Source: a virus
Length of the DNA stretch: 46,678 nt
Direction: 5' to 3' (one strand)
IMG/VR virus record: IMGVR_UViG_3300036857_000169
Coordinates: 1 to 46,678 of that record
In this document: in pieces, positions 1 to 45,283 of the stretch
Numbering within the stretch: position 1 is the stretch's first letter
How the letters are laid out: every line of letters begins with the position of its first letter
Notes under the pieces: generated by a model
What the model saw: only the letters and a program-made list of their open reading frames with translations
Told to the model about the DNA's origin: nothing
The model's database searches: none
Position numbers and translations under genes: made by a program

Positions 1-105
1 TGCGGCGAGGTCGTCTGCGACGACTGCGACGAACTCGCTCCCTGGGGCGCGCACGATCCCTTCGAGCACACTGCCGCCGGTTCGGATCGCGACGCCGATG
101 CGTGA
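1..105 (+). CDS. C-terminal part of zinc-finger protein (wraps from window end)
   Basis: This partial frame is the last 34 codons plus stop of the protein that is complete at 46396-46656. It is a repeat of that gene caused by linearising the circle and not a second gene. It begins inside the cysteine cluster (C-G-E-V-V-C-D-D-C) and ends at TGA 103-105. Confidence 0.85.
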   Translation, partial: CGEVVCDDCDELAPWGAHDPFEHTAAGSDRDADA

Positions 106-127
106 GCGCAGTGATATCAAGCGAGCC
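1..127. repeat. terminal direct repeat (left copy)
   Basis: These 127 bases are identical to the last 127 bases of the window (46552-46678). The frame of a zinc-finger ORF continues unchanged through both copies. 127 is a common assembler k-mer size, so this is best read as the overlap of a circular contig and not as a packaged terminal repeat. The genome is then circular or circularly permuted. Confidence 0.9.
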
Positions 128-159
128 TCCCCTGGCGTCCAGGAGCAGCAGGGGGAGGC

Positions 160-363
160 GTGGATGCAGCAGGGGGAGGGGCACTGATATCATGCTGTGT
201 GTGCGATGTGACTGCGGGCTGGTTGACGGAGCACCGGCTGGTGGACGGACGGGTGATGCGCTCGGTGGTGATGCCCTGGCGCGTCCGCATCCAGCGGGAG
301 CTGTGGCTGGCGTCCGAGGTGGAGATGCCGCTGCGCATCACGCGGTGGATCGCGATTGGCTGA
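160..363 (+). CDS. hypothetical protein, 67 aa
   Basis: No family recognised. A GGGAGG ribosome-binding sequence lies about 6 nt upstream of the ATG, and the frame has the G/C-ending codons typical of this genome. The protein has an early CCVCD motif and a Trp/Arg-rich body. After its TGA at 361-363 another frame stays open to TGA 417-419, which overlaps the next start. The real gene may therefore be longer and frameshifted, or two overlapping frames may exist. Confidence 0.4.
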   Translation: MDAAGGGALISCCVCDVTAGWLTEHRLVDGRVMRSVVMPWRVRIQRELWLASEVEMPLRITRWIAIG

Positions 364-418
364 CCCCCAGCCACGCTGGTCCTCAGCCGGTGCGCGTGCG
401 CAAGCGGCTGGAGGAATG

Positions 419-742
419 ATGGCCGACATCTCCCTCGATCACGCGCTCGTCGTGATCGGCATCCTCGTGCGCCGGCTCGGGGGCAGCGTCACCCTCACCG
501 CTGACGAGTCCGACACGATGGACGGGCTCCTCCTGCGGCGCATCCACAACCAGGACGACACCGTCACCTTCTCCCTCGTCCAGCCCCTCGCGCCCGCTCC
601 CGACACCTGCTTCACGCTCCCAGATGGCGACTGCATCGGCGGTCCCTGCGTCCACTGGCCGGACTCCGCACCCGTCCTCCCACTCGCCTACGCCGCGCTC
701 ACCCGCTCCACGATCGAGGCGGCGCCCGATGCCTCCGCCTAG
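419..742 (+). CDS. hypothetical protein, 107 aa
   Basis: Function unknown. The start MADISLDHALVV is chosen at the second of two adjacent in-frame ATGs (416 and 419); a GGAGGA sequence is just upstream. Codon use is strongly G/C-ending. The N-terminal third is a mixed alpha/beta sequence rich in Leu, Ile and Val, followed by a stretch with three cysteines. The end overlaps the next start, as in the rest of this gene run leading to the terminase. Confidence 0.65.
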   Translation: MADISLDHALVVIGILVRRLGGSVTLTADESDTMDGLLLRRIHNQDDTVTFSLVQPLAPAPDTCFTLPDGDCIGGPCVHWPDSAPVLPLAYAALTRSTIEAAPDASA

Positions 743-923
743 CGCACTCAACGGCGCGATCCGGGCCGCCGTCCTCGCCATTCGAGCGAGTGGTGCCCCC
801 GCCTTCACCAGCGATCGCTCCACGGCCGAGATTCACCCACGCTGGCTCGCGACGCCCCGACGACGCTACCAGTTGTGGGCCATGCTGGAGCGCCTGGAGG
901 AGTTGGAGCGCGATGCCCGCTGA
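729..923 (+). CDS. hypothetical protein, 64 aa
   Basis: No family recognised. The ATG at 729 overlaps the stop of the preceding gene (TAG 740-742), and its own TGA lies inside the next gene, so the three are translationally linked. The C-terminus (WAMLERLEELERDAR) is a short amphipathic, charged helix. Confidence 0.6.
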   Translation: MPPPSALNGAIRAAVLAIRASGAPAFTSDRSTAEIHPRWLATPRRRYQLWAMLERLEELERDAR

Positions 924-1155
924 TCCCACGCTGCGCCCCCGGCTGCCCGAACGCGCGCTGATCGTCGGCGCGATTCTCTATCGTAAACGCATGGACGTCG
1001 GCTGGACCCGACGCTACGCCGCCCCGCGCCTCGGCCTCTCCGAATCCGAACTCCTCGCGTTCGAGAAAGGGCACCCCATTCTGGAGGGGCAGTTTCGCCG
1101 CATCATGCGAATCTACAATCGGACACTCTATAAAGTTACTCGGTGGCTCCGCTGA
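913..1155 (+). CDS. small helix-turn-helix DNA-binding protein, 80 aa
   Basis: Residues about 32-70 resemble a Cro/C1-type helix-turn-helix: an Arg-rich helix, then APRLGLSESELLAFEKG, then a further helix (RRIMRIYNR). The position two genes before the terminase small subunit would fit a regulator of late genes or a DNA-packaging accessory. It overlaps its neighbours by 11 bp upstream and one base (TGATG) downstream. The function is inferred only from the HTH-like pattern. Confidence 0.6.
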   Translation: MPADPTLRPRLPERALIVGAILYRKRMDVGWTRRYAAPRLGLSESELLAFEKGHPILEGQFRRIMRIYNRTLYKVTRWLR

Positions 1156-1301
1156 TGCGCCCGATCTTCGTCAGAGCCTCCTCCCCCTCCCTGGCCGCTC
1201 TCGGCGAGTCCCGCTGCCTGCGCTGCGAGGGCGACGGGTGCGACCACGTCCTCGCACGCGCCGCGCGCTCCCTCCTCGAAACCTGCTCGAATCAGCCATG
1301 A
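1155..1301 (+). CDS. small cysteine-pair protein, 48 aa
   Basis: A short protein with CLRCEGDGC in the middle, a possible half zinc-binding site. Both ends overlap neighbours (TGATG at 1153-1157 and ATGA at 1298-1301), which supports it as a translated gene in the operon leading into the terminase. Function unknown. Confidence 0.5.
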   Translation: MRPIFVRASSPSLAALGESRCLRCEGDGCDHVLARAARSLLETCSNQP

Positions 1302-1999
1302 GAGCGCCCATCTTCTCGGGCCAGCCCGCGACCTGGGACCTGGCGCTCGGTCCCCCGCCTGACGCCCCCTATCGCATCACCGAAGCGCTCGAACCGGTCG
1401 ACTACCGCATCCTCCACCTCCGCTTCGCCGGCCACGCCGACACGGCCATCGCCGACGACATCGGGCGCTCCCTCGATGAAGTCCGCGATCGCATCGCCCG
1501 CCCCGCCTTCCTCGCCACCCAGGCCGAGGTCGAGAAGGGCGTCCTCGCGACCATCATCAAGCAGGGCGAGTACGAGCCGACGACGATCGCGAAGGCCGCC
1601 GCCCCGGCCGCCATGCGCCGCATCATCGCCCAGTCCGAACGCGAGCGCGACCCCAGGACGCGACTCGCAGCGAACAAGACAGTTCTCCAATATGCAGGTA
1701 CAGAACCACCTAAACGGCTAGAAATAACTACACCTGATAGGGTGATCGAGCAGATGACGCCGGCCGAGTTGGAGGACCTGGCCGAACGCCGCGTCTGGCC
1801 CGCGCGCTTCCGCGAAGTCCTGCGCGCCTTCCTCCCCGCCCCCGTCCCGCGCCTGCCCGCCGCGCAGACGACGGTCGACGTCACCCCCCGCGACGACGCC
1901 GGCCCGCCCCCCGCCTCGGTCGACCTTTCCGCCTTCGCCCGCGAACTCGGCCTTGACGCCTCGCCTGCGCGTAGCTCGGCTCGGGATGGCGGTAAGTAG
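1298..1999 (+). CDS. terS: terminase small subunit (TerS-like), 233 aa
   Basis: Probably the DNA-recognition subunit of the packaging enzyme. After a disordered start, residues about 30-75 read as an HTH (DYRILHLRFAGHADTAIADD followed by a second helix). A central helical region contains RLAANKTVLQYAG, the pattern that often precedes the oligomerisation and C-terminal region in phage small terminases. It lies just before the terminase ATPase gene. The ATG at 1298 overlaps the previous stop as ATGA. The C-terminal 60 residues are Pro/Ala-rich and probably flexible. Assignment rests on motif and position. Confidence 0.7.
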   Translation: MRAPIFSGQPATWDLALGPPPDAPYRITEALEPVDYRILHLRFAGHADTAIADDIGRSLDEVRDRIARPAFLATQAEVEKGVLATIIKQGEYEPTTIAKAAAPAAMRRIIAQSERERDPRTRLAANKTVLQYAGTEPPKRLEITTPDRVIEQMTPAELEDLAERRVWPARFREVLRAFLPAPVPRLPAAQTTVDVTPRDDAGPPPASVDLSAFARELGLDASPARSSARDGGK

Positions 2000-2003
2000 C
2001 GAG

Positions 2004-2032
2004 TTGACAAGTCTGCTACGCGCCACTACAAC
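2004..2032 (+). promoter_or_regulatory. candidate promoter upstream of terminase ATPase gene
   Basis: TTGACA (2004-2009), a 17-bp spacer and TACAAC (2027-2032) match a sigma70-type layout. The spacer contains GCTAC five bases after the -35, the same arrangement as the leftward early promoters near 40.0, 40.9, 42.6 and 43.4 kb. It lies immediately after the terS stop. Confidence 0.5.
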
Positions 2033-2120
2033 CCGTGCTGCCATCACCGGCCCCACCGCTCGGCGCCGGGGCGTCACTCGGGCAATCAGTCGGAGCTAGT
2101 CCCTTCATTGGTTCGCTCTC

Positions 2121-2184
2121 GGGTGGCGTCCCGGCACCCACCCTGCCGAGGCACGCCGCGCCACCTTCGGTGCCGCGCCTCGGC
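2121..2184 (+). promoter_or_regulatory. two adjacent hairpins in the leader of the terminase ATPase gene
   Basis: GGGTGG (2121-2126) pairs with CCACCC (2138-2143), and GCCGAGGC (2145-2152) pairs with GCCTCGGC (2177-2184). The second hairpin also has extra pairings inside its arms. This 290-bp gap (2000-2289) between terS and the ATPase gene has no convincing ORF. It holds the promoter above, these hairpins and two copies of the 11-mer GCGTGYAAACG. Confidence 0.45.
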
Positions 2185-2188
2185 GACC

Positions 2189-2256
2189 GCGTGTAAACGC
2201 GAAACCCCCGTTGACCTGGCACCCGCTGACGCGCTAGGCCATCGAGCGTGCAAACG
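2189..2256. repeat. over-represented 11-mer GCGTGYAAACG (closest pair)
   Basis: Two copies (2189-2199 and 2246-2256) lie in the gap before the terminase ATPase gene. Other exact copies on either strand are at 5048-5058, 32304-32314, 36458-36468, 37642-37652, 39232-39242, 40505-40515, 42016-42026 and 42655-42665, with a one-mismatch copy at 36124-36134. Flanking bases are not conserved. Role unknown. Confidence 0.7.
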
Positions 2257-2289
2257 CGGTGCTCCCCTGCGCGAGGCTCGGGTCGCTGA

Positions 2290-3048
2290 ATGACGTCTCG
2301 CGTGCAGCCGGCGATCGCTACCCCCGACGACGGCGAGCCCTTCCACTTGGACTTGCCCGGCACCGAGGAGATGGCGCTCCGCGCACGCGCTCGGCTCCGC
2401 GCCGTCCAGAAGTCCTCCAGCGACCGCTACCGCACCGATCCCTACGCCTTCCTCGTCGAGTGCGTCTGGACGCTCGACCAGGCATCCCAGCAAGTGCGCC
2501 GCTTCCCCGACTTCGACGACGGCGCCTGCGCCTGCGGGCACGGCTGCCGCAACTTCATCCAGCACCTCTGCGTCACCTGGCTCCGCGAGAAGCGGCTCCT
2601 CGTTCCCAAGTCACGTAGAGTGTTAGTAAGCTGGACAATGGTCGGCCTCCACTGCTGGCTCGCGCGCTTCTTCCCCGGCTCCACGATCGCCTTCGTCTCC
2701 CGCAAGCAGGGACTCAACGACAGCGAGGGCGCCGCCGAGTTAGTCAGACGAATTAAATTCATAGAAGAACACCTCCCCGTCGAGATAGAGCCACTCCCCT
2801 TCCAGTACAACTTCGCGCGCCTCAAGTACCCGACGATCGGCAGCGAGATTATCGGCGTCGCGCAGGGCGCCGATCAGTTGCGTCAATACACCCTCACAGC
2901 GATCTTCGCCGACGAGATGGCTTACTGGGAGTTGGCGCATGACACCTATTCAGCGAGCATTCCAACGCTCGAAGGTGGTGGCCGCTTCACGGGCGTCTCG
3001 TCGGCCAACCCTGGCTTCTTCAAGCAAGCGGTCTTCGACTGCCTGTAA
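2290..3048 (+). CDS. terL: terminase large subunit, ATPase half (split gene), 252 aa
   Basis: The motor ATPase domain that drives DNA into the prohead. Visible motifs are a Walker A-like VPKSRRVLVSW (residues 105-115), Walker B TAIFADE (203-209, hydrophobic run plus Asp-Glu) and the coupling motif SSANPG (237-242). A Cys/His cluster (CACGHGC, 80-86, and Cys94) could bind metal. The protein stops ten residues after the coupling motif, where an ordinary TerL continues into the nuclease domain. That domain is encoded separately at 8680-9552. Together the parts total 542 residues, a normal TerL length. The start has only a weak ribosome-binding site. Confidence 0.85.
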   Translation: MTSRVQPAIATPDDGEPFHLDLPGTEEMALRARARLRAVQKSSSDRYRTDPYAFLVECVWTLDQASQQVRRFPDFDDGACACGHGCRNFIQHLCVTWLREKRLLVPKSRRVLVSWTMVGLHCWLARFFPGSTIAFVSRKQGLNDSEGAAELVRRIKFIEEHLPVEIEPLPFQYNFARLKYPTIGSEIIGVAQGADQLRQYTLTAIFADEMAYWELAHDTYSASIPTLEGGGRFTGVSSANPGFFKQAVFDCL

Positions 3049-3081
3049 GTTAGCTAACAATGCTAACTCACAATGACCGTT

Positions 3082-3113
3082 CTCATGCAGGACCTCCCGT
3101 CACGCTGCATGAG
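3082..3113 (+). promoter_or_regulatory. 9-bp perfect stem-loop after the terminase ATPase stop
   Basis: CTCATGCAG (3082-3090) and CTGCATGAG (3105-3113) form a perfect 9-bp stem with a 14-nt loop. A smaller hairpin (GTTAGC with GCTAAC) lies directly behind the ATPase stop codon. Both sit upstream of the larger branched structure at 3117-3225. Confidence 0.5.
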
Positions 3114-3116
3114 CGC

Positions 3117-3225
3117 GAGGAGGGGGGCTCCGTCGCACATGCCGGGGATGGTCCCCGGCCAGCCTGTCCCACCGATCGTCCGTGTCGCCAGCCAGGCTGC
3201 GGGGGTGCGAGGAGCCCCTCTTTTC
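3117..3225 (+). ncRNA. predicted three-way-junction RNA between split terminase and cargo
   Basis: A long closing helix joins 3117-3138 to 3205-3225. Its core pairs are GGGGCTCC with GGAGCCCC and TCGCAC with GTGCGA, separated by one bulged G (3132) and extended outward by mixed Watson-Crick and G-U pairs. It encloses a perfect 8-bp hairpin with a 3-nt loop (GCCGGGGA 3141-3148 with TCCCCGGC 3152-3159) and a second stem (CAGCCTG 3160-3166 with CAGGCTG 3193-3199). No credible ORF occupies the gap. It could be a processed or regulatory RNA, an attenuator (TCTTTTC follows the last arm) or a motor RNA. Function is unknown; the pairing itself is visible. Confidence 0.5.
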
Positions 3226-3239
3226 AATGAGGTAACCAA

Positions 3240-3875
3240 ATGGACTACTTAAACTACTTACTCTCTATGCTCCCTGGGGGCTCGGCGCTCGGCGGCGGCG
3301 GCCTCGGCCTCGGCGGCGGGCTCTCGGGCGCCATGCTCCCCGGCCTCGCCCGCTTCGGCGCCGGCCTCGGCACGGGCGTCCTCTCGGGGCTCTCCGGGCT
3401 CTCCGGCGGCGCTCCCGTGATGGGCGGTGGCGGTCTCTACGGCGGTGGAGGCGCTCCCGCCCCGTCGGGCGGCATGGGTATGGGCATGGGCGCCGCACCC
3501 TCTGCCTACCCGGGTGGCTCGACGCTGCTGATGCCCGGCGGCACGCCCGAGACGGCGCAACCTGCCACACCCGGCACCTACCCCGGCGGCAGCCAGATGC
3601 TCTACCCTGGCGGCACCCCCGCGACCTCGGTCCCGGTCGGTGGCCAGCCCGCCGCGCCCTCCCTCGGCCAAGCCGGCGCGACGACGTTCCCGACCGCCTC
3701 CGGGGGTGACAGTGGCACTGCCCGGCGCGGCGCCTCCCAGATGGACGCGATGCGGAGCGCCATGATGCAGTGGCTCGCGGCGCACGCGGGCATCGGCGAA
3801 GACGCCGTCCAGGCGACCGTCCGCGCCCTCCAGCAAGCCGCTGCCCAGCGCGCCGCCCTCTTCGCCGGCCAGTGA
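3240..3875 (+). CDS. glycine-rich protein, 211 aa
   Basis: No family recognised. Residues 1-85 are almost entirely Gly, Leu, Ala and Met (runs such as GGGGLGLGGGLSG), followed by repeated YPGGS/MPGGTP blocks (about 88-130). A short amphipathic helical end, about 165-211, is rich in Ala and Gln. The ATG follows GAGGT at good spacing. The first ten codons use rare A/T-ending codons, unlike the rest. The low-complexity make-up suggests a structural or membrane-interacting protein. It is the first gene of the cargo between the terminase halves. Confidence 0.65.
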   Translation: MDYLNYLLSMLPGGSALGGGGLGLGGGLSGAMLPGLARFGAGLGTGVLSGLSGLSGGAPVMGGGGLYGGGGAPAPSGGMGMGMGAAPSAYPGGSTLLMPGGTPETAQPATPGTYPGGSQMLYPGGTPATSVPVGGQPAAPSLGQAGATTFPTASGGDSGTARRGASQMDAMRSAMMQWLAAHAGIGEDAVQATVRALQQAAAQRAALFAGQ

Positions 3876-4151
3876 CACGACACATGGGGAGCCGGTCGAC
3901 TGGCGTCGCGGTGAGGTGATGTCGTGCCGGCATGCCACGCGGAGGTGGGGGCGCGTCGGCCAGTGACCGCGCACGTCATCCTCTCGGCCCTCTGGCAGCG
4001 CGCCGTCATCCTGACGCTCGCGCTCGCCCGCTTGGACGCCATCCACGCGCGCGGCGTGGCCCCCCTCGACCATCACGATAAAGCATGCTACCCTTCCGGC
4101 GCAAGAACGCTACCATCGCCATTTATTAGCAACCACGAAAGGAGCACACGT
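3876..4151 (+). other. gap with open but unassigned frame
   Basis: No convincing independent gene. One frame is open from GTG 3924 into the next gene with G/C-ending codons as far as about 4075, so it may be a remnant or an upstream-extended form of the next protein. The last 70 bases are AT-richer and carry the ribosome-binding site of the gene at 4152. Confidence 0.35.
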
Positions 4152-4424
4152 ATGGCGGCCACGATCACGGCAACCGGCACCTGGACGCCGCTCAACTTGG
4201 ACTTCACGCGCATGAGCAAAACTTCGGCGAACGTCCCGCACGCCGACAAGATGCAGCTCGACGCGCTCAAGTCTGCCGACCTGGCCGAACTCGTCCAGTT
4301 CGTCCAGGCGATGGCCGACGGCTACGGCATCGGCTTCAACCCGGCCAAAGCCCTCTTCTTCGCCTGCGTCCAAGCCTTCATGAATCGCGAGACGCCCGCC
4401 GTCTCCCGCTCGTTCGCAGCCTAG
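4152..4424 (+). CDS. hypothetical protein, paralogue A (MAATITATG start), 90 aa
   Basis: AAAGGAG lies at ideal distance before the ATG. The first nine residues, MAATITATG, are nearly identical to the start of the protein at 5155-5439. Both continue with TWT, a variable middle and a helical end of similar spacing (LVQFVQAMADGYG here, VQQFVALVAAAQGYS there). They look like diverged duplicates. Function unknown; small virion decoration or lysis accessory roles are possible but not shown. Confidence 0.65.
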   Translation: MAATITATGTWTPLNLDFTRMSKTSANVPHADKMQLDALKSADLAELVQFVQAMADGYGIGFNPAKALFFACVQAFMNRETPAVSRSFAA

Positions 4425-4460
4425 CCTTCCCCACGGCTAGCTCTCTAGGGAGGTAGTGTC

Positions 4461-4709
4461 ATGGAGAGGAACATCGACCAACTCCCTCTCGCCCAGCGCA
4501 TCCCGGCCCTCGTCGAGGCCGTCACCGCCGCCCGCCAGCGCAAGGAAGCCGGCGCGTCGGAGGAGGCCGACTGGATGGATCAGCTCGCGAAGGCCGAAGC
4601 CGAGGTGACCGGCAAGGCGGCCGGCTCCGAAGGCGTCGAACTCTCTGGCTTGATCCCCGACAACCCCTACGCGCCGAAGCCGTCCGACGACCAGGACGCG
4701 GCGACATGA
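4461..4709 (+). CDS. hypothetical charged helical protein, 82 aa
   Basis: AGGGAGG precedes the ATG. Residues 1-60 are predicted helix with alternating charged and Ala residues (coiled-coil-like), followed by a Pro/Asp-rich tail. The TGA at 4707-4709 overlaps an ATG (ATGATG), linking it to a downstream frame. No family recognised. Confidence 0.6.
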   Translation: MERNIDQLPLAQRIPALVEAVTAARQRKEAGASEEADWMDQLAKAEAEVTGKAAGSEGVELSGLIPDNPYAPKPSDDQDAAT

Positions 4710-4817
4710 TGGACGACGATGGCCGCCAACTGTCCCTCCGACTTCCAGACCGTTTCCTTCCCCCCACGCATCAGGGTCCTGGTCATCAGGGTCCTCTGCT
4801 AGCGCTGGAGCATCCCG

Positions 4818-5048
4818 ATGGCAGTCTCGAACGCGCCAGCCAACTTCCAGGGCGACCTGATCGACCCACTGACGGGGAACCAGGTCTACCGGGTGCCGGC
4901 GTGGTGGGAGTCTCGCGTCTCCCCGTCCCCGGCGACGCCACGCCCCTCGACCGCTCCCGCGCCAGCCTCGCCCTCGGACCCGACGCCGCCGTCGATGATC
5001 GGTGGCTGGGACCCGGTCTATGGATTCCTCATGCGCCCGGTGACCTAG
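4818..5048 (+). CDS. hypothetical protein, 76 aa, with possible displaced acidic tail
   Basis: The frame starts 8 nt after GGAG and is strongly G/C-ending. It encodes an aromatic N-terminal part (NFQGDLIDPLTGNQVYRV), a Pro/Ser/Thr linker and an aromatic end (GGWDPVYGFLM). Just behind its TAG lies one copy of the 11-mer GCGTGTAAACG (5048-5058). Directly after that, a very acidic stretch with the same codon bias runs to TAA 5149 in another frame, which is also open from 4706. The acidic stretch may be the former C-terminus, displaced by a small insertion, or a separate overlapping product. Confidence 0.5.
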   Translation: MAVSNAPANFQGDLIDPLTGNQVYRVPAWWESRVSPSPATPRPSTAPAPASPSDPTPPSMIGGWDPVYGFLMRPVT

Positions 5049-5154
5049 CGTGTAAACGACCCGAGCCCGAGGACGACGATCCGCTCGCCGATCCCGAGCC
5101 CGACCCGCCCGAGGACGACATCGACGACGACTACGAAAAGAAGGAGTAACGACG

Positions 5155-5439
5155 ATGGCCGCAGTCATCACCGCGACAGGCACCTGGACGACCCCCGACG
5201 TGAAAGCGCAGGACGTCGGCGGCTCTGGCGTCACCTTCCGCAACGCGGGGGGCGACGACTTCGACAGCCGCGCCTCGATCCAGCGCGGCAAGAACCTCTT
5301 CGACGAAGTCCAGCAGTTCGTTGCCCTGGTCGCCGCCGCGCAGGGCTACTCTGGCACCGCCGCGATCGATCAAATCCTCGCCTGCCTGCACGACATGCGC
5401 CGCCAGCCGAACATGGGCGAGCGCGTCTTCTCTCAGTAA
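5155..5439 (+). CDS. hypothetical protein, paralogue B (MAAVITATG start), 94 aa
   Basis: Paralogue of the product of 4152-4424, sharing MAA-x-ITATGTWT at the start and a helical C-terminal half of matching length. AAGGAG precedes the ATG. The middle (DVGGSGVTFRNAGGDDF) has no counterpart in paralogue A. Unknown role. Confidence 0.65.
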   Translation: MAAVITATGTWTTPDVKAQDVGGSGVTFRNAGGDDFDSRASIQRGKNLFDEVQQFVALVAAAQGYSGTAAIDQILACLHDMRRQPNMGERVFSQ

Positions 5440-5479
5440 ACCTGCTAGCTAGTTAATTATCACTCAGAAGGAGGGTCCC

Positions 5480-5635
5480 ATGGCGATCGTCTCGGTCATC
5501 CTCCTGCTCCTCGCCTTCCTCTGCTTCGTCCTCGCCGCCGCGCAGGCGCCGATCCCGCGCCTGAATCTCGTCGCGGCCGGGCTCGCACTCTGGGTCCTGA
5601 CCGCTCTCCTGCCGCACCTCCACGCCGCGCCCTGA
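5480..5635 (+). CDS. small two-helix membrane protein, holin candidate, 51 aa
   Basis: GAAGGAGGG lies 5-8 nt before the ATG. Two hydrophobic segments (about residues 2-21 and 29-45) are joined by a short Pro/Arg loop (APIPRLN), a hairpin topology seen in small holins and other phage inner-membrane proteins. It is followed at once by the beta-barrel gene, with the endolysin 2 kb downstream. A holin role is inference from size, topology and neighbourhood only. Confidence 0.6.
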   Translation: MAIVSVILLLLAFLCFVLAAAQAPIPRLNLVAAGLALWVLTALLPHLHAAP

Positions 5636-5636
5636 C

Positions 5637-6875
5637 GTGCGCGCCCTATGCCTATTCATCTGCATATCAATAGGTATAGTTGGTAGCGCTGCGATGGTCT
5701 CCGCCCGCACGATCGTCGGCACGCTGGGCGACGCGCAGGAGCGCGTTGGGCTCCGCCCCGCGCGCGCCTTCACCACCTTCGCTGGTCACGTCGCCACCCT
5801 GCTGACCGCGCCGTCGCTCCGCTCGACGACCAGCGCCGCCCTCGCTGGCACCGCTGCCATCGACTCCAGCGAGTCGACCCTCGGCCCGATCTTCTTGGAC
5901 CACGCCGAGACCCTCGGCCGGGGCGTCACCAACCTGAACGTCATCTCGCAACGGAGCTTCGCCCAAGGCTCGCTCCTGGGTGCCCCGTTCAGCGGCCTCG
6001 GCCTCACCGCGCCCCCCGTCGTCACCCGGCGCACCCCGACGGCCCATCCCGCCAGTCCCGCCCTGCTGGGTGTCCGCCTGCATTACACCCTCGACCTCCA
6101 CGTCTGGGCAGTCGCCCTCGCCGTCAGCTACGGCATCACGGACGCCCTGGACGTCTCGCTCGTCCTGCCCGTCGTCGCCGACCGCCTCGATCTCGCGACG
6201 ACCGCGCGCGTCGTCGCCGCCACCGGCCCGACCGGCGGTGCGTTTACCCGCGTTGCCGATGCGCCCACCCTCGGCGGCACCCTTGAGCCCGTCCAGTCGA
6301 CCGGCATCGGCGATCTCGTCCTGCGCGGCAAGGTGCGCCTCTCCGTCCCCGCGCCCTGGCACGCCGCCGCCACGCTCGAACTCCAGTTTCCGACTGGCGA
6401 TCTGATGCAGCTTCATGGCACGGGCGACACCTGGATCACCCCTGGCCTCGACGTCGCCTATCCCTTCGCCGTCGGGAGCCGCCGCGCCGAACTCGACGCC
6501 AGCGCCGGGCTCAACTTCGACATCCCGCACTCCCTTCGTAGCCAAGCCCTCTACGGCCTCTCCGCGTCGATGGTGCTCTGGCCGAAGCGGCTCGGCGCGA
6601 TCGTCGAATTTCTCGGCCAGTCCCAGTTCGACTCGGCCTTCCGTCCGAACTCGACCGACGTCCTCGTCCTCACCCCAGGCGGCATCCAGCCCGATCCGCT
6701 CCTCGGCGTCGGCTGGACCGCGCGCCTCGATCAGTGGGATTTTTCCTTTGGGCTCCGCGCCGTCCTTCTCCCCGGCATCCTGGTGTTCGCCAACGGCGCC
6801 GTCGCGCTCAACCCCGCTGCCGGTGTCCGCCCCGCTGGCGTCGTCCCGACGATCGGGATCGGGGCGTCCTTCTGA
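5637..6875 (+). CDS. exported outer-membrane beta-barrel protein, 412 aa
   Basis: A GTG start gives a classical signal peptide: Arg, a hydrophobic core (LCLFICISIGIVG) and a cleavage site near AAMVSA. The mature part has alternating hydrophobic strands and short turns, including VALAVSYGITDALDVSLVLP, RGKVRLSV, AATLELQFPTGD and LGVGWTARLDQWDFSFGLRA. It ends in Phe (GIGASF), the usual outer-membrane-barrel end signal. The pattern resembles bacterial transporters of the phenol MetA-pathway type. In a phage it could change the infected cell's surface, for example by blocking superinfection. The signal-peptide codons are A/T-rich, unlike the rest. The GTG has no clear ribosome-binding site, so the exact start is less certain. 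Confidence 0.75.
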   Translation: MRALCLFICISIGIVGSAAMVSARTIVGTLGDAQERVGLRPARAFTTFAGHVATLLTAPSLRSTTSAALAGTAAIDSSESTLGPIFLDHAETLGRGVTNLNVISQRSFAQGSLLGAPFSGLGLTAPPVVTRRTPTAHPASPALLGVRLHYTLDLHVWAVALAVSYGITDALDVSLVLPVVADRLDLATTARVVAATGPTGGAFTRVADAPTLGGTLEPVQSTGIGDLVLRGKVRLSVPAPWHAAATLELQFPTGDLMQLHGTGDTWITPGLDVAYPFAVGSRRAELDASAGLNFDIPHSLRSQALYGLSASMVLWPKRLGAIVEFLGQSQFDSAFRPNSTDVLVLTPGGIQPDPLLGVGWTARLDQWDFSFGLRAVLLPGILVFANGAVALNPAAGVRPAGVVPTIGIGASF

Positions 6876-6937
6876 TGACGCTGCTCGCGCTGGCACTCGC
6901 GAACCCCCCTGCGAGCGCTGCCACTTCGGCAGAGTGA
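6875..6937 (+). CDS. 20-aa peptide with duplicated signal-like sequence
   Basis: The ATG overlaps the stop of the barrel gene (TGATG). The peptide MTLLALALANPPASAATSAE looks like an isolated signal sequence. Nineteen bases of it (6884-6902) recur exactly at 6956-6974 in the signal peptide of the next gene, so it is probably a duplication remnant, or a leader peptide coupling the two genes. Confidence 0.35.
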   Translation: MTLLALALANPPASAATSAE

Positions 6938-6943
6938 GCGGTG

Positions 6944-7720
6944 ATGATGCTCGTCCTCGCGCTGGCACTCGCGAGCCCGACCGCGCCGCACACGATCGTC
7001 GCGACCAAAGCGGCGCTCTGCCGCGAACGCTGCGGCCCCATCACCGTGAGCCTCTGCAACAACCTTCCCAGCAAGCAAGCAAAGCAGTGCGCCCAGGGCA
7101 TCCGCTCCGCCTGCCGGCGCTCGACTCCCGAGGCGGTCTGTCCCGATGTCCTGCCGTCGCTCGTTGGTCCGACTGGTCCGACGGGTCCGCCGGGCGCCGT
7201 GGGTCCAGTGGGTCCGTCGGGAGTGCCGGGCGCTCCGGGCGGCCCTGGCCCCGCAGGCGCCGCTGGACCTGCTGGCGCTCCTGGCGATCGTGGCGCTCCT
7301 GGTCCTCCTGGCGACGCTGGTGCTCCTGGCTCCCTCGGTCCCGCTGGACCCACCGGCCCCACCGGCCTCGCTGGAGCGACCGGCCTCGCTGGACCGACTG
7401 GAGTGACGGGCGCGACCGGACCTACAGGACCGCCAGGCGCCACCGTCCAGATCGTCTCGGTCACGCAGGACTTCGGCCGTGTCCAAAATGGCGCCCTGAT
7501 CCAGGTCGTCGTCACCTGCCCGCCCGGCATGGCGGTCGTCGGCGGCGGTGCCGTCACCGACATCACGCCCCCCAACGACACCGACACGAAGCGCCTCCAC
7601 CAACTCTTCTCTGGCCCGGTCGGCACGACCGAGTGGGTGACGGCGTCGACCGCCGTCGCCACGCTCTCCAATGGCTCGAACCTGCGCTACGTCGCGAGCG
7701 CCACCTGCGTCGGGGAATAG
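6944..7720 (+). CDS. secreted collagen-like protein, 258 aa
   Basis: Domains in order: a short signal peptide ([15 protein letters not shown]), a Cys-rich N-terminal region (five Cys, about residues 25-65), roughly 30 Gly-X-Y triplets (about 75-167, with many GPTGPTG and GAPG units) and a beta-rich C-terminal domain containing [11 protein letters not shown]. Collagen repeats are common in phage fibres, but the signal peptide argues that this protein is exported by the infected cell. The C-terminal domain resembles heads that follow bacterial collagen-like stalks. The ATG at 6944 is preferred; GTG 6941 and ATG 6947 are alternatives. It stops 1 nt before the endolysin start. Confidence 0.75.
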
Positions 7721-7721
7721 C

Positions 7722-8282
7722 ATGATTATCCGAAAATACTTCTTCGACAATATCAAGTATTACCTGTTCAAGTCCTTCACCCAGCAGCAGGTCGACGGCC
7801 TGAACCGCTACTTGGACTACTTCGACGACGACAACCCGCCGATCCCCGACAAGTGGCACCTGGACGACCGTATGTTCTCGTATATCTTGGCAACTGTCTA
7901 CCACGAGACGGCCGCCACGATGACCCCGGTCACGGAGTACGGGTCAGCGAGCTACTTGAAGGGCAAACCCTACTACCCCTACTACGGCCGGGGCGACGTC
8001 CAACTCACCTGGAAGGACAACTACGCCACCCAGGACGTGAAGCTGGGTCTCTCCGGGAAACTCGTATCGGACCCCGACCTGGCGCTCGATCCCACGATCA
8101 GCCTCCAGGTCTGCGTCTTCGGCATGCTCGATGGCGACTTTACAGGTAAGAAGCTAGCTGACTTCTTCACCGACACCCTGACCGACTGGTACAACGCCCG
8201 CACGATCGTCAACGGCCACGACCGGGCTGCCGACGTCGCCACCTACGCCGAACTGTTCTCGAACGCCATCACCCGAGACTAG
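7722..8282 (+). CDS. GH19-family endolysin (chitinase-type glycosidase), 186 aa
   Basis: Likely cleaves the peptidoglycan glycan chain at lysis. The GH19 signature is clear: YHET (Glu62, probable general acid), a second Glu in TEYG (Glu72), then YYGRGDVQLTWKDNY (87-101) and a helical C-terminal part. The length of 186 residues fits the catalytic domain alone. No signal peptide or transmembrane segment is seen, so release should need a holin; candidates are at 5480 and 8576. The first dozen codons are A/T-rich. Confidence 0.85.
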   Translation: MIIRKYFFDNIKYYLFKSFTQQQVDGLNRYLDYFDDDNPPIPDKWHLDDRMFSYILATVYHETAATMTPVTEYGSASYLKGKPYYPYYGRGDVQLTWKDNYATQDVKLGLSGKLVSDPDLALDPTISLQVCVFGMLDGDFTGKKLADFFTDTLTDWYNARTIVNGHDRAADVATYAELFSNAITRD

Positions 8283-8290
8283 GGCATGGC

Positions 8291-8575
8291 ATGATTGGTA
8301 CTCCCGCCGTCGCCCTGGCCGACTGGGTCCGCGCCCGCTTCTGGGAACTCCAAATCCCGCTGACGATCGTGATGGCGCCGGGCGACGTCGGCGTCACTGC
8401 GCTCTCCGACTTCGGCGAGCGCATCCACTTCCCCGACCAGGGCGCGGTCCAGTTCTTCCTGATGGGCTATCGCCTCGGCGAAGCGCACGCGCTCGATCCG
8501 CTCCTCGCCTCCCCCTATACGAGCCCCACGGTCGAGCCCGCCGACCAAGAGGCCGAGACACCCGAAGGCAGCTAG
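8291..8575 (+). CDS. hypothetical protein in lysis group, 94 aa
   Basis: Not recognised. It has a Trp-containing amphipathic start (LADWVRARFWELQ), a beta-like centre and an acidic C-terminus. The TAG abuts the next ATG (8573-8578). It lies between the endolysin and a single-span membrane peptide, so a lysis accessory is possible, but no spanin lipobox or signal sequence is seen. Confidence 0.55.
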   Translation: MIGTPAVALADWVRARFWELQIPLTIVMAPGDVGVTALSDFGERIHFPDQGAVQFFLMGYRLGEAHALDPLLASPYTSPTVEPADQEAETPEGS

Positions 8576-8680
8576 ATGGCTACTGAAACTCAACTCCTCC
8601 ACGCCTACGGACTGGGCGCACTCGCTGGAGCGATCGTCATCGTCATGGCGTGGATCGCCTGGACGACCTGGCCACGCTGA
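8576..8680 (+). CDS. single-span membrane peptide, 34 aa
   Basis: Contains one transmembrane helix (GALAGAIVIVMAWIAWTTW) with a short N-terminal tail and a terminal Arg, as in pinholin-like or other small phage membrane peptides. Its first six residues, MATETQ, are the same as those of the downstream terminase nuclease protein, and the nucleotides share GAAACTCA. Its TGA overlaps the ATG of that gene (TGATG), so the two are translationally coupled. Confidence 0.6.
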   Translation: MATETQLLHAYGLGALAGAIVIVMAWIAWTTWPR

Positions 8681-9552
8681 TGGCCACCGAAACTCAGCAA
8701 ACCGAGCGTGTCCTCGATCGCCCGCCCGACTTCGCCGCCTCGCCGCGCCCGGGCATCACGGAGTGGAAGAACGCTCGCAACGCCTTCTTCGTCTGCCGCC
8801 TCCACTACACCGCCGATCCGCAGAAGCGCTCGGGCGAGTGGAAGCAGAAGACCAGCGAGGGACTCTCGCTGCGCGCCTGGCAGCGCGAGTACGAAATCAG
8901 TTGGACGTCCCCCGAGGGCGAGCCGGTCGTCCCCGAGTTCGACGCCAATCGCCACGTCCGCGAGACCATCATCACCCGCGACGCGAAGCTGCTGCGCTTC
9001 TGGGACTTCGGCGCCGTCAGCCCCGTCGTCCTCTTCTGTCAGCTCTCCCAATATGGACAACTCTTGGTACATAGAGAGTTGTGCCCGTTTAACACCCCGC
9101 TCGATCAATTGCTACCTGTTGTCAATGCGATCGCTCTCGACCTGGTCACGCGCACCGACTACTTCGACGCGGGCGACCCCGAGGTGGACAGTGTCGGGTC
9201 TCTCGGGAGCATCGCCGAACTGCTGCAACGTGCGAACATCCACATGCACACCAACCGCCCCGGGAAGGAAGTCAGCTATGCGACGCTGCGTGAGCGCTTT
9301 CTTAAATCTGTGTATATCCCTCGTCTCGGTCATGATCCTGCTGTCCTCGTCTCGCCGCGCTGTCCGAACCTGATCGAGGCGCTCTCGGGCGGCTTCCATC
9401 TCTCCGCCCTCCCGCCCTATCGCCCGGTGAAGGCGCATCCGATGAAGGACCTGGTCGACGCGCTCCGCTACGGCTTCGACAATCTCGATGCGGCCGGCGC
9501 CGACCGCGACATCCTGCTGAAGAAACTCGCGTCGGGCGACCGGGCCTGGTGA
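8680..9552 (+). CDS. terL: terminase large subunit, nuclease half (split gene), 290 aa
   Basis: RNase H-like headful or cos nuclease domain. Residues 36-75 (FFVCRLHYTADP, then WQREYEISW) are the part of TerL that normally follows the ATPase coupling motif. Acidic catalytic residues are visible in RFWDFG (Asp109), YFDAGD (Asp163, Asp166) and HPMKDLVDALRY (Asp257, Asp260). No ATPase motifs are present; those are encoded at 2290-3048. The first 30 residues are not TerL-like and may be a new N-terminus acquired at the split. The gene overlaps the upstream membrane peptide by one base. Confidence 0.85.
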   Translation: MATETQQTERVLDRPPDFAASPRPGITEWKNARNAFFVCRLHYTADPQKRSGEWKQKTSEGLSLRAWQREYEISWTSPEGEPVVPEFDANRHVRETIITRDAKLLRFWDFGAVSPVVLFCQLSQYGQLLVHRELCPFNTPLDQLLPVVNAIALDLVTRTDYFDAGDPEVDSVGSLGSIAELLQRANIHMHTNRPGKEVSYATLRERFLKSVYIPRLGHDPAVLVSPRCPNLIEALSGGFHLSALPPYRPVKAHPMKDLVDALRYGFDNLDAAGADRDILLKKLASGDRAW

Positions 9553-9617
9553 CGCGAGCGGGTGGGCTGGAAGTCACCGACAGACCATGGTACGAGACGA
9601 CGCACCAAGCAAGCTGG

Positions 9618-9633
9618 ACCTAGAGAGCTAGGT
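9618..9633 (+). promoter_or_regulatory. CTAG hairpin before a ribosome-binding site
   Basis: ACCTAG and CTAGGT flank AGAG and form a 6-bp hairpin just before GAGAGGAGG of the next gene. Similar CTAG-containing inverted repeats occur near starts at about 4436-4449 and 33806-33828. They may influence mRNA stability or access to the start. Confidence 0.35.
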
Positions 9634-9647
9634 GAGAGGAGGCGAGG

Positions 9648-9815
9648 ATGGCGACGCGCTGGCTCCCCCCCGATGGATCGGGTGATCCCGCGATGCGTCT
9701 CGACGCCTGTCCGCGCTGCGGCACGCCGTACGAGGACGTCCCTGGCGCGCACTTCCTCTGCGAGGTCTGCGAGGCGCACGTGACCGTGCCCGACGATCCG
9801 CCACCCCCGACGTGA
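9648..9815 (+). CDS. zinc-ribbon protein, 55 aa
   Basis: GAGGAGGCGAGG precedes the ATG. CPRCG and CEVCE pairs separated by about 18 residues form a compact zinc ribbon, followed by a Pro-rich tail. Between the terminase nuclease and the fibre genes; function unknown. Confidence 0.65.
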   Translation: MATRWLPPDGSGDPAMRLDACPRCGTPYEDVPGAHFLCEVCEAHVTVPDDPPPPT

Positions 9816-9828
9816 AGGAGCCGTGAAG

Positions 9829-10032
9829 ATGCCAACCGATCGCACCGCGAACCTCGGACTCACCTACACGGGTGATGCCGCCGCCAACGCGAACCTCGAC
9901 AAGCTGGACGCCGCCATCGGCGCGGTCTCGGCGCCGCCTGCCGACAGCGGCCCGTCGCAAGCCGACTTCGACGCGCTGGTCGCCCGCGTGGACGCGCTCG
10001 ACGCCCGCGTCACCGCGCTCGAAGGCGCCTAG
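9829..10032 (+). CDS. short fibre-anchor-like protein with coiled coil, 67 aa
   Basis: Residues 8-30 (LGLTYTGDAAANANLDKLD) carry the motif shared by the next fibre proteins: a beta strand, then Asp, Asn and a Leu-Asp-x-Ala helix. The C-terminal 25 residues form a heptad-like coiled coil (LVARVDALDARVTALEG). ATG 9829 is preferred over GTG 9823 because AAGGAG is 8 nt upstream. It may be a minimal fibre base or trimeriser. Confidence 0.6.
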   Translation: MPTDRTANLGLTYTGDAAANANLDKLDAAIGAVSAPPADSGPSQADFDALVARVDALDARVTALEGA

Positions 10033-36079: not shown

Positions 36080-36268
36080 CTATAGACCTTCCCAGCGAGC
36101 GTGTCGAGACGCTAGCAGTTGTGCGTTTACACGTGGGCGACCACTATTAGTCGTCGTCTCGTTGAACGTCCAGAACTGGCGCAGGAACTTCGGCGGCGGA
36201 CGACCCTCGTCCTCGCACGCTTTTCGGATGATGCGATTGTTCTCGGCCCGACTCGGGTCGCGGTCCAT
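36080..36268 (-). CDS. hypothetical protein, 62 aa
   Basis: Basic, Arg/Pro-rich; RPPPKFLRQFWTF in the middle. The coding strand contains a one-mismatch copy of the 11-mer (36124-36134). The ribosome-binding site is weak. It is retained because it fills the space in the leftward operon with compatible codon use. Confidence 0.5.
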   Translation of the reverse strand: MDRDPSRAENNRIIRKACEDEGRPPPKFLRQFWTFNETTTNSGRPRVNAQLLASRHARWEGL

Positions 36269-43419: not shown

Positions 43420-43652
43420 GCCCTGGGCAGCCTGGGAGCGCCCAGTGGAAAGCCTTGGCCATGTTCCAGGCCGATGCGCGCGCGCAAACCCTTGCGGCAC
43501 AAGCCTGAGCGCGTGCGTGGTCGCCTTTTTCCACTTTCCACCCCCTGTAAATGCGCGTGTGCCGCCGGTTTTCCGGCTTTTCCGGTGGAAACGGGGTGGA
43601 AAGGGGGAAAAGTCTGGGGAACTACTACAGGGCTCAACTGGCGCGTTCTCGA

Positions 43653-43712
43653 CTGTGTGTGAGTGTGTGTGAGTGTGTGTGTGAGTGTGTGTGTGTGTGA
43701 GTGTGTGTGTGT
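43653..43712. repeat. GT/GA microsatellite
   Basis: About 60 bases of (GT)n interrupted by GA (units such as GTGTGTGAGTGTGTGT). Simple repeats like this are unusual in phages. It could unwind easily or form Z-DNA inside the origin-like region, and is prone to length variation. Confidence 0.85.
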
Positions 43713-44092
43713 AGAAGAAAAGGCGAAGATTCGAGCATAGGGCATATTTCGCGAGTGAAGCCGCGTCCTTACGTTTTCCACCTCCAAGGTGGAAAAGGTG
43801 GAAAACGGCGGCCGGGTGCGGCCCCAAGTCTACGGATTCTAGCAATCTACCCATAGAAGCGCGCGCACACACGCATCTACGGGGGTGGAAAAGCGGAAAC
43901 GCGAGACAGGGTGGTCGCAAGCGCTTCTCGCGCAACGGTTTGCGCTTCGTGGGTGCCTTTGGATACCTGCGTACCTTTCCACGGGGCGCGTACCGGGGTG
44001 CGTACCGTTTGCGTACCCTCGGCGTCCCGGCTCCGCGAGGGCGCGGCCCGCGCCCCGCGAGCGCCGCGAAGCCAGCGAATCGGCTCGGATCG

Positions 44093-44187
44093 GCTAGAAA
44101 TGATAGCCAGTTGGTAGAAATGTTGCAATAATTGATAGCTAGCATGTAAAACTTGCTAGAAATGCTAGCCAACTAGCAGAAATGCTG
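44093..44187. repeat. AT-rich direct repeat pair with four TAGAAATG words
   Basis: Two 33-bp units (44093-44125 and 44155-44187) match at about 27 of 33 positions, 62 bp apart. Each contains two (T/C)AGAAATG words and a TAGCCA core. Low GC in a GC-rich genome suggests a DNA-unwinding or protein-binding element. Confidence 0.65.
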
Positions 44188-44278
44188 ATAATCCATGCCT
44201 GAGCAGAGCGCAAGTCGGCTGGCACGGCCCTTGCTGGCGCTGCTAGCAAAATATTTTTCGCCGCCTGGCAGAAAAGGG

Positions 44279-44307
44279 TTGACTCGCTACCATGGCCATG
44301 GTCTACT
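44279..44307 (+). promoter_or_regulatory. early rightward promoter candidate
   Basis: TTGACT at 44279-44284, then GCTACCATGGCCATGG, and TCTACT at 44302-44307 (17-bp spacer). It is the forward-facing relative of the leftward motif, though GCTACC here is 1 base and not 5 from the -35. It drives the genes from 44348. Confidence 0.45.
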
Positions 44308-44347
44308 GCTCTCACCGTCGGATGACGGTAGAAAGTAGGGACTAGCG

Positions 44348-44542
44348 ATGAGAAAAGCACTCCGACTCCTGATCGAAGCAAGCACGGAAGGACTAGTCTA
44401 CGATATCGTCTGCCACGCCTTCGCGGCGCTGGTCGCATGGCACGTGATTACCGGCGCTCCCGCGTCGGTCGTCGCCGCGCTCGGCACGCACCTCGATACC
44501 GCAGCAGCAGCGGTCAGCGCCAACGTCGACAAGGGGGAGTGA
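44348..44542 (+). CDS. hypothetical protein, 64 aa
   Basis: The first rightward early gene. Basic N-terminus, then a mostly hydrophobic central helix (HAFAALVAWHVITGAPASVV), possibly membrane-associated, and an Ala-rich end. AGGGA is upstream of the ATG. Function unknown. Confidence 0.6.
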   Translation: MRKALRLLIEASTEGLVYDIVCHAFAALVAWHVITGAPASVVAALGTHLDTAAAAVSANVDKGE

Positions 44543-44545
44543 GCG

Positions 44546-44680
44546 ATGTTTGTCGTGGTCTATCTCTGGCAGGGCGAGCGTCACACGCATTCGCGCACGT
44601 TCGACACGCATCGCGAGGCTCTCTGCCTCGCCCAGACCATGCAGGCCGAGGGCTGGCAAGCATGGGTAGAGCGCCGCTAA
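44546..44680 (+). CDS. hypothetical small protein, 44 aa
   Basis: MFVVVYLWQGERHTHSRTFD continues into a short helix and ends WQAWVERR, an alpha/beta hairpin of SPOR-like size. The TAA overlaps the next start (TAATG). Unknown role. Confidence 0.55.
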   Translation: MFVVVYLWQGERHTHSRTFDTHREALCLAQTMQAEGWQAWVERR

Positions 44681-44793
44681 TGGCACCGCGCGACCCCTGG
44701 AAAACCGTGGGCAACGTCTTGACGATTGTCTGGACGGTGCTTTGCATCTTCTCGTTCCTGGCCAGCGGCATCCTGACCAGCCTTCTTAGCTAG
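44680..44793 (+). CDS. single-span membrane peptide, 37 aa
   Basis: A Lys/Trp-containing N-terminus followed by one transmembrane helix (VLTIVWTVLCIFSFLASGIL). Coupled by TAATG to the previous gene. The first of three tiny membrane peptides in a row. Confidence 0.55.
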   Translation: MAPRDPWKTVGNVLTIVWTVLCIFSFLASGILTSLLS

Positions 44794-44802
44794 GAGTCTA
44801 TC

Positions 44803-44901
44803 ATGGTGAACGACGTCTCGAAAGCCATCATCGCAATCGGCATCGCCATCGGCGGGATCGTGCACGTGCTCTCCCCCGTGCTGCATGCCGTGTTGAGGTA
44901 G
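44803..44901 (+). CDS. single-span membrane peptide, 32 aa
   Basis: MVNDVSKAIIAIGIAIGGIV begins a short helix containing a GxxxG-like pattern (IAIGGIV), ending HAVLR. AGGAG is upstream. It may oligomerise in the membrane. Confidence 0.5.
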   Translation: MVNDVSKAIIAIGIAIGGIVHVLSPVLHAVLR

Positions 44902-44903
44902 CC

Positions 44904-44957
44904 ATGGGTCGCGCACTCGCACTCGCTACCGTCATCATGTGGCTACTACTCTGGTAG
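44904..44957 (+). CDS. very short hydrophobic peptide, 17 aa
   Basis: MGRALALATVIMWLLLW starts 2 nt after the preceding stop, with GAGGTAG upstream overlapping that gene's end. A bare hydrophobic helix; it may be translated as a micro-protein, but its tiny size keeps confidence low. Confidence 0.35.
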   Translation: MGRALALATVIMWLLLW

Positions 44958-44978
44958 CCAGCTAGCAGGTCTGGCGCT

Positions 44979-45000
44979 GGCGCACGGTCGATCGTGCGCC
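44979..45000 (+). terminator. stem-loop, possible terminator
   Basis: GGCGCACG and CGTGCGCC form a perfect 8-bp stem with a 6-nt loop behind the membrane-peptide genes. No T-run follows, so termination is uncertain. Confidence 0.4.
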
Positions 45001-45079
45001 GGTGCCCGGCCCTAGCAGGAATGCACGAACTATCAAGCTATCAGGCAGCGGTGCAAGGACTTAGATAGCTAGCATCCTA

Positions 45080-45127
45080 CCCCTATAGGGGGTGCTATAG
45101 CAGCAGACAGTGAAAATGCTATATAGC
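45080..45127. promoter_or_regulatory. tandem palindromes, operator-like
   Basis: Three perfect palindromes stand in a row: CCCCTATAGGGG (45080-45091), GCTATAGC (45094-45101) and GCTATATAGC (45118-45127). The gap 44958-45283 has no gene; it also holds the stem-loop above, a GCTACTATGG motif (45221) and a TTGACA (45249). It probably controls the downstream anti-CBASS operon. Confidence 0.45.
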
Positions 45128-45283
45128 CCCCTATGGCCCCCTGCACCCCGCCGCGTCCTCGCGGCGGATATCTTCTCTGCCGCGCGCGCACCTCTCGACA
45201 AACCAGGCAGACAGGAGCTTGCTACTATGGTTAGGTGGTAGAGCGCAGTTGACAAGTTACGCATCTTCGACTAGCCCCTCGCC

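Follow-up and report, generated by a model that had tools for sequence, protein, structure and literature searches.

A conserved structured RNA beside the ATPase half of a split terminase in related soil phages

We report that positions 3082-3225 of a 46,678-nt viral sequence (IMG/VR record IMGVR_UViG_3300036857_000169, analysed at its full length and hereafter called the window) specify a conserved structured RNA, RNA2, in which a hairpin (P0) is followed by a three-way junction and of which the shape is kept while the sequence is not. RNA2 is kept in seven related lineages of soil phages, where it adjoins the gene that encodes the terminase ATPase half or lies not far from it. It is a phage conserved structured RNA outside Rfam, and its setting is unusual in that two RNAs, RNA2 and a second one termed RNA1, flank one half of a split terminase. 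As to function, our reading is tentative, with a probability of about 0.45: RNA2 may be an element embedded in the mRNA that serves processing, or marks a boundary, at the ATPase cistron of the terminase.

The terminase is split in the window and in its relatives

The ATPase half of the large terminase subunit (252 aa) is encoded at 2290-3048 on the + strand, as judged from a PHROG terminase match (E 0.0026) and from tblastn to annotated phage terminases. The nuclease half lies about 5.6 kb downstream, at 8650-9552 on the same strand, and was located by tblastn with the C-terminal halves of unsplit relatives (E 1e-24); it also matches the annotated terminase in MW202637. In distant relatives (loci L073-L079 and L082) the terminase is one long ORF. 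Since the C-terminal halves of such unsplit proteins match both 8650-9552 of the window and separate genes in L002, L005, L008, L009, L013, L015, L016, L019 and L022, the terminase split that an earlier note had read from this DNA is confirmed as real and shared. The ATPase half is conserved in 15 first-round loci, that is, viral contigs matched by the 252-aa ORF, and an alignment-based search for it gave 80 loci; in close relatives with the 3' end present, the ORF ends at the same residue. Among annotated phages the closest are MW202637 and Paenibacillus phage API480, both with an unsplit large terminase, and no terminase relatives were found in 84,980 species genomes.

Upstream of the ATPase half, 1238-1999 (+ strand, start uncertain) holds a putative small terminase (TerS) gene, for which Pfam and PHROG searches gave no match; the name is suggested by its position and by homologues directly 5' of the ATPase gene in most relatives. 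Behind RNA2 lies a Gly-rich ORF (3240-3875, + strand), with its own Shine-Dalgarno-like GAGGT just past the closing helix P1, and a family search of this ORF returned no match. A similarly Gly/Ala-rich ORF is seen at 2334-3095 of L013, 5' of the ATPase gene and not 3' of it as in the window; this differing side suggests that the Gly-rich ORF may be mobile, the likeness being one of composition. In some distant relatives (L023, L036 and L044), a candidate HNH/AP2-type homing endonuclease gene was noticed by eye directly past the split point, and it is a possible agent of the terminase split. Further along the window, two small proteins (4151-4424 and 5155-5439) have similar N-termini (MAA-IT-TGTWT), keep their order in relatives and are perhaps paralogues. 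By eye, similar stretches (GCTACCCT...GCAAGAA...ACCATC) were noticed at 4081-4120 of the window and at about 2497-2540 of L007, 5' of the gene for the small MAATITATGTWTPL protein, and they may be a third conserved element.

Fold of RNA2

Folding of the + strand reproduced the architecture described in the earlier note, namely a 21-bp closing helix around an 8-bp hairpin and a 7-bp stem, with a 9-bp hairpin upstream. The closing helix P1 comprises 15 + 6 bp (3117-3131/3211-3225 and 3133-3138/3205-3210) with one bulged G at 3132; its 5' strand spans 3117-3138 and its 3' strand, which ends in a pyrimidine-rich run, spans 3205-3225. P2 (3141-3159) is the 8-bp hairpin, and its loop, AUGGU in the window, reads RNGGU in relatives, with GGU invariant in all seven lineages. 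P3 (3160-3199) is the 7-bp stem CAGCCUG/CAGGCUG (3160-3166/3193-3199), which carries a long loop of variable length, and the junction strand from P3 to P1, J31 (CGGGG, 3200-3204), is G-rich in every lineage aligned. P0 (3082-3113) is formed by pairing of 3082-3090 with 3105-3113. A hairpin in its place is predicted 5' of the junction in 7/7 lineages, with differing sequences and z values of -0.6 to -3.4, which makes it weaker evidence; in L005 and L014 the stop codon of the ATPase gene and the 5' arm of this hairpin overlap. A count of P0 pairs was set aside, the L004 row having been edited to skip a bulge. The gap is also without a conserved protein, as had been claimed: one + frame is open, this frame is not kept across relatives, and the third loop ranges from 6 to about 48 nt in length.

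The strong pairing noted at the outset stands up against shuffled sequence. The minimum free energy of 3117-3225 is -66.3 kcal/mol, compared to -51.1 +/- 3.9 for dinucleotide shuffles (z -3.9), and none of 200 shuffles was as low. The sequence is GC-rich, and when segments along the entire window are scanned and ranked by z, the one of 110 nt at 3121 comes 14th of 1553. Folding energy by itself is not decisive for RNA2; the comparative test is. In the same scan, several segments with strong folding (z -3.2 to -4.4) were seen at 43440-45200.

Covariation in seven lineages

A similar structure 3' of the ATPase stop was seen by eye in five close relatives, each of which folds independently into the same three-way junction. 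A covariance model (R1) was built from L004 and L014 only, with the third loop of L004 trimmed and gap positions padded with N. Over 346 kb this model matched the window (E 6e-12), L002 (9e-11), L011/L012 (1e-6), L005 (2e-6) and L009 (1.4e-5). The window, L002, L005, L009 and L011 had played no part in building R1. The recovery of L002 was blind: its copy, with one extra gene between it and the ATPase stop, had previously gone unnoticed.

In an alignment of the seven distinct RNA2 sequences, 98.0% of the pair cells form standard pairs. Compensatory changes on both sides, which the earlier note had expected of related phages, are indeed present in 23 of the 29 pairs. Covariation extends to all three helices, with compensatory changes in 13 of 16 modelled pairs of P1 and covariation in 6/6 modelled pairs of P3, and the covariation score is 0.844 against 0.257 +/- 0.039 when shuffled, a value reached by 0/500 shuffles. 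The distinct sequences behind these statistics number seven, and their alignment was fitted to the structure; with partners moved by 1-3 columns, pairing falls to 44-49%, and the size of this drop, together with the blind match in L002, argues that the fitted alignment does not explain the result. MAFFT alignments (A2-A6) were dropped because they did not respect the helices. The alignment holds 13 G-U/U-G cells versus 1 A-C/C-A, an asymmetry which indicates that RNA2 is read from the + strand. While helix sequences change, the GGU of the P2 loop and the G-rich junction strand between P3 and P1 stay invariant or nearly so.

Distribution of RNA2

RNA2 is co-directional with the terminase genes in 7/7 lineages. 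It had been placed exactly at the terminase split; this holds for six of the seven lineages, where RNA2 lies directly behind the ATPase cistron, but not for L002, where it lies behind one further gene, 634 bp past the ATPase stop. A second covariance model (R2), run over 79 sources, found matches in these seven lineages only. No convincing copy was found in L007, L010 and L013 (best E 0.03-0.07), whose records of 25-32 kb are likely incomplete; their ATPases are 74-89% identical to that of the window and their gene order is the same. In the ATPase tree, L007 falls inside the RNA2-bearing group and L010 is sister to the RNA2-bearing L012, so that RNA2 has likely been lost there or moved to parts that are not sequenced. 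Covariance-model searches of distant relatives, with terminases about 40-55% identical, gave no RNA2. A hairpin-pattern search of viral contigs with exact patterns brought up at least 205 matching stretches, of which 158 loci, scanned with R2, yielded no convincing new RNA2; L199 (E 4e-4) was rejected as a member, having been chosen by the very hairpin scored and adjoining unrelated genes.

No family in Rfam 15 matches RNA2 in gathering or permissive scans, the best chance matches having E values of 0.096 and above, and the self-cleaving ribozymes and riboswitches of Rfam 15 gave no match at gathering score. A literature search, with incomplete journal coverage, turned up no earlier description of structured RNA next to a terminase gene.

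A second RNA upstream of the ATPase half

RNA1 (2064-2136, + strand) is a covarying long hairpin with apical GAGCUAGUCCCUUC, situated between the putative TerS gene and the ATPase half. Its apical part reads GGGAG-CUWGUCC-CUCCU, in which the CUWGUCC loop is strongly conserved, and it folds in six lineages with z values of -3.2 to -6.1. A model built from L004 alone matches L009/L008, L010, L006/L005, L012/L011, L007, the window and L002 (E 1e-5 to 0.12, the weaker matches being backed by position), and compensatory changes occur in 20 of 27 pairs across nine distinct rows, one of which (L010 6763) is probably spurious. A pattern search (47 stretches) and a model search gave no member outside the clade. 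RNA1 is present in L007 and L010, where RNA2 was not found. Its orientation is reversed in L005/L006 (L006 4723-4789, -), and therefore it is not, in those phages, an ordinary cis element of the ATPase mRNA; RNA1 would be either an independent RNA gene or an element whose cis function has been lost in L005/L006.

In L011, the third loop of RNA2 carries GGACAAG, the exact complement over 7 nt of the RNA1 loop CUUGUCC of the same phage. Pairing between the RNA1 loop and RNA2 was rejected as a general contact, the 7-nt match being found in L011 only. As a separate observation, GTGTAAACG occurs four times in the window (at 2191 and 5050 on the + strand, and at 36124 and 37642 on the - strand; 0.09 expected) and recurs in L002, L004, L006, L007 and L009, sometimes inside a GCGTGTAAACGC hairpin; it is possibly a regulatory or binding site.

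What RNA2 may do

As a boundary element, RNA2 would be carried on the late polycistronic transcript rather than being a separately promoted gene, and would act after transcription behind the terminase ATPase cistron. Either a double-strand-specific RNase (RNase III type) would cut its long P1 stem, or a protein would bind at the conserved loop and junction; the cut or the binding would give the ATPase mRNA a 3' end and a stability separate from those of the downstream genes. RNA1 may do the same job at the 5' end of the cistron; structured RNA is present on both sides of it. A sigma-70-type promoter scan of 1-10000 found no promoter, non-sigma-70 promoters lying outside the scan, and with the P0 arm on the ATPase stop codon there is no room in L005 and L014 for a promoter of RNA2's own; together, these two observations point to an mRNA-embedded RNA. 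A nearly perfect stem of 16-21 bp is the kind of target that RNase III takes, and a long double-stranded intercistronic stem is indeed present, P1 having 21 bp in the window and 16 modelled pairs that covary across lineages. Against the boundary reading, the conserved loop and G-rich junction exceed what an RNase III site needs and suggest a specific partner; furthermore, as RNA2 was not found in L007, L010 and L013, a boundary function would have to be dispensable or replaced, and the reversed RNA1 of L005/L006 also speaks against a cis role at the 5' end of the cistron in those phages. The earlier note had offered three functions, among which a processed RNA or boundary is the best fit, an attenuator working as a plain terminator fares poorly, and an analogue of the phi29 packaging RNA is unsupported.

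Conservation of the loop and junction while the helices change would also suit a trans-acting small RNA, cut from the late transcript, whose RNGGU loop and G-rich junction would bind a protein, of the phage or of the host, or else a host RNA. RNA2 is a discrete module whose place relative to the neighbouring gene differs between L002 and the other lineages, and its similar neighbour RNA1 can be inverted. However, neither its own promoter (sigma-70-type scan) nor a consistent terminator was seen, and we regard a trans-acting RNA as possible, if on balance doubtful.

A cis antiterminator of the HK022 put type, which would bind the elongating RNA polymerase, is unlikely. Like put, RNA2 would be a nascent phage RNA without its own promoter, and it stands at the head of a long gene cluster; its position is nevertheless mid-operon, and it was not found in three close relatives sharing the gene order. 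The put RNAs are about 70 nt long, consist of two stem-loops and are effective over at least 10 kb, and the paper describing them mentions no three-way junction (PMC9378689).

Termination or attenuation that limits read-through into the cargo genes appears no more probable. In the window and L004, four to five T do follow the closing stem, at its end or no more than about 10 nt past it, and a terminator-like match overlaps 3201-3219. On the other hand, there is no T-run of four in L005, L009 and L011, the region has about as many terminator-like matches as chance would give (3 found versus 3.2 expected), and a multibranched hairpin of 80-115 nt with conserved loop and junction is unlike the usual short one. 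An intrinsic terminator would have a compact GC hairpin and a T-run kept in relatives, whereas here the T-run is found in some lineages only, and it is unlikely that RNA2 is a plain intrinsic terminator.

A packaging-motor RNA of the phi29 pRNA type would bind portal and terminase and help to drive DNA translocation. RNA2 is linked to the terminase in 7/7 lineages, its three-way junction is closed by a long, bulged stem, and its conservation is rich in structure and poor in sequence, as in pRNAs, which share only 12% sequence similarity (PMC5340915). The pRNA also has interlocking loops (PMC5340915), whereas complementarity of L2 with L3 in RNA2 reaches 4 Watson-Crick bp in L002 only and 2-3 in the other six lineages; L2 x L3 loop-loop and J31 x L3 junction-loop pseudoknots were rejected, each being seen in single lineages only. 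According to its description, pRNA occurs only in phi29 and its relatives among Bacillus phages, is encoded at the genome 5' end and acts with terminase p16, the C-terminal nuclease activity of which is unnecessary (PMC11476376). Packaging of the phi29 type deals with unit-length DNA with terminal protein and needs no working nuclease domain, whereas here, unlike in phi29 (PMC11476376), a separate nuclease half (8650-9552) and a putative small terminase (1238-1999) are present. RNA2 was also not found in L007, L010 and L013, close as their ATPases are to that of the window, and RF00044 gave no match at E <= 10 in 7 records, where positive controls gave no signal either. Taken together, the loops, the nuclease half, the close relatives without RNA2 and the missing RF00044 match (controls silent) place RNA2 outside the phi29 pRNA family on the features tested, and we think a pRNA-like role very unlikely. 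We give just as little credence to the view that RNA2 and RNA1 could be working parts of the split-terminase motor, as an independently arisen packaging-motor RNA and not a phi29 pRNA homologue.

Finally, packaging sites often lie in the terminase region, where RNA2 sits, but a DNA element (a packaging-start or replication site) with palindromes mimicking RNA is most improbable given the strand-asymmetric 13 G-U versus 1 A-C cells and the covariation of a branched fold on one strand.

Meaning and comparison with known systems

Should RNA2 only shape mRNA, it would be a clear example of how the dosage of terminase can be set apart from that of neighbour genes by RNA structure. A trans-acting RNA2 would be new among phage RNAs, and one that joins the motor would end the monopoly of the phi29 group on packaging RNA. 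The two covariance models make the question testable in other collections.

In phage T7, RNase III processing sites lie between cistrons of the polycistronic mRNA. RNA2 resembles such sites in having a long intercistronic stem, co-directional with the genes, on a polycistronic phage mRNA; it differs in being a three-way junction with conserved loop and junction sequence, and its cleavage is putative. With HK022 put it would share the nature of a structured nascent phage RNA that has no promoter of its own; put, however, belongs to early operons and consists of two stem-loops side by side, about 70 nt in all, whereas RNA2 is a hairpin plus three-way junction in a packaging operon. Like the phi29 pRNA, RNA2 is phage-encoded, measures about 110-120 nt, has a three-way junction and a long bulged closing helix, and keeps its structure with little sequence conservation; it is tied to a packaging ATPase. 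Unlike the pRNA, it is without conserved loop-loop partners, goes with a terminase that has its nuclease half as a separate protein and a putative small subunit, is encoded next to the ATPase gene rather than at the left end of the genome, and was not found in close relatives. Like other conserved phage RNA motifs from comparative genomics, RNA2 is defined by covariation in metagenomic phage contigs; it differs from them in matching no Rfam 15 family and in flanking, together with RNA1, one half of a split terminase.
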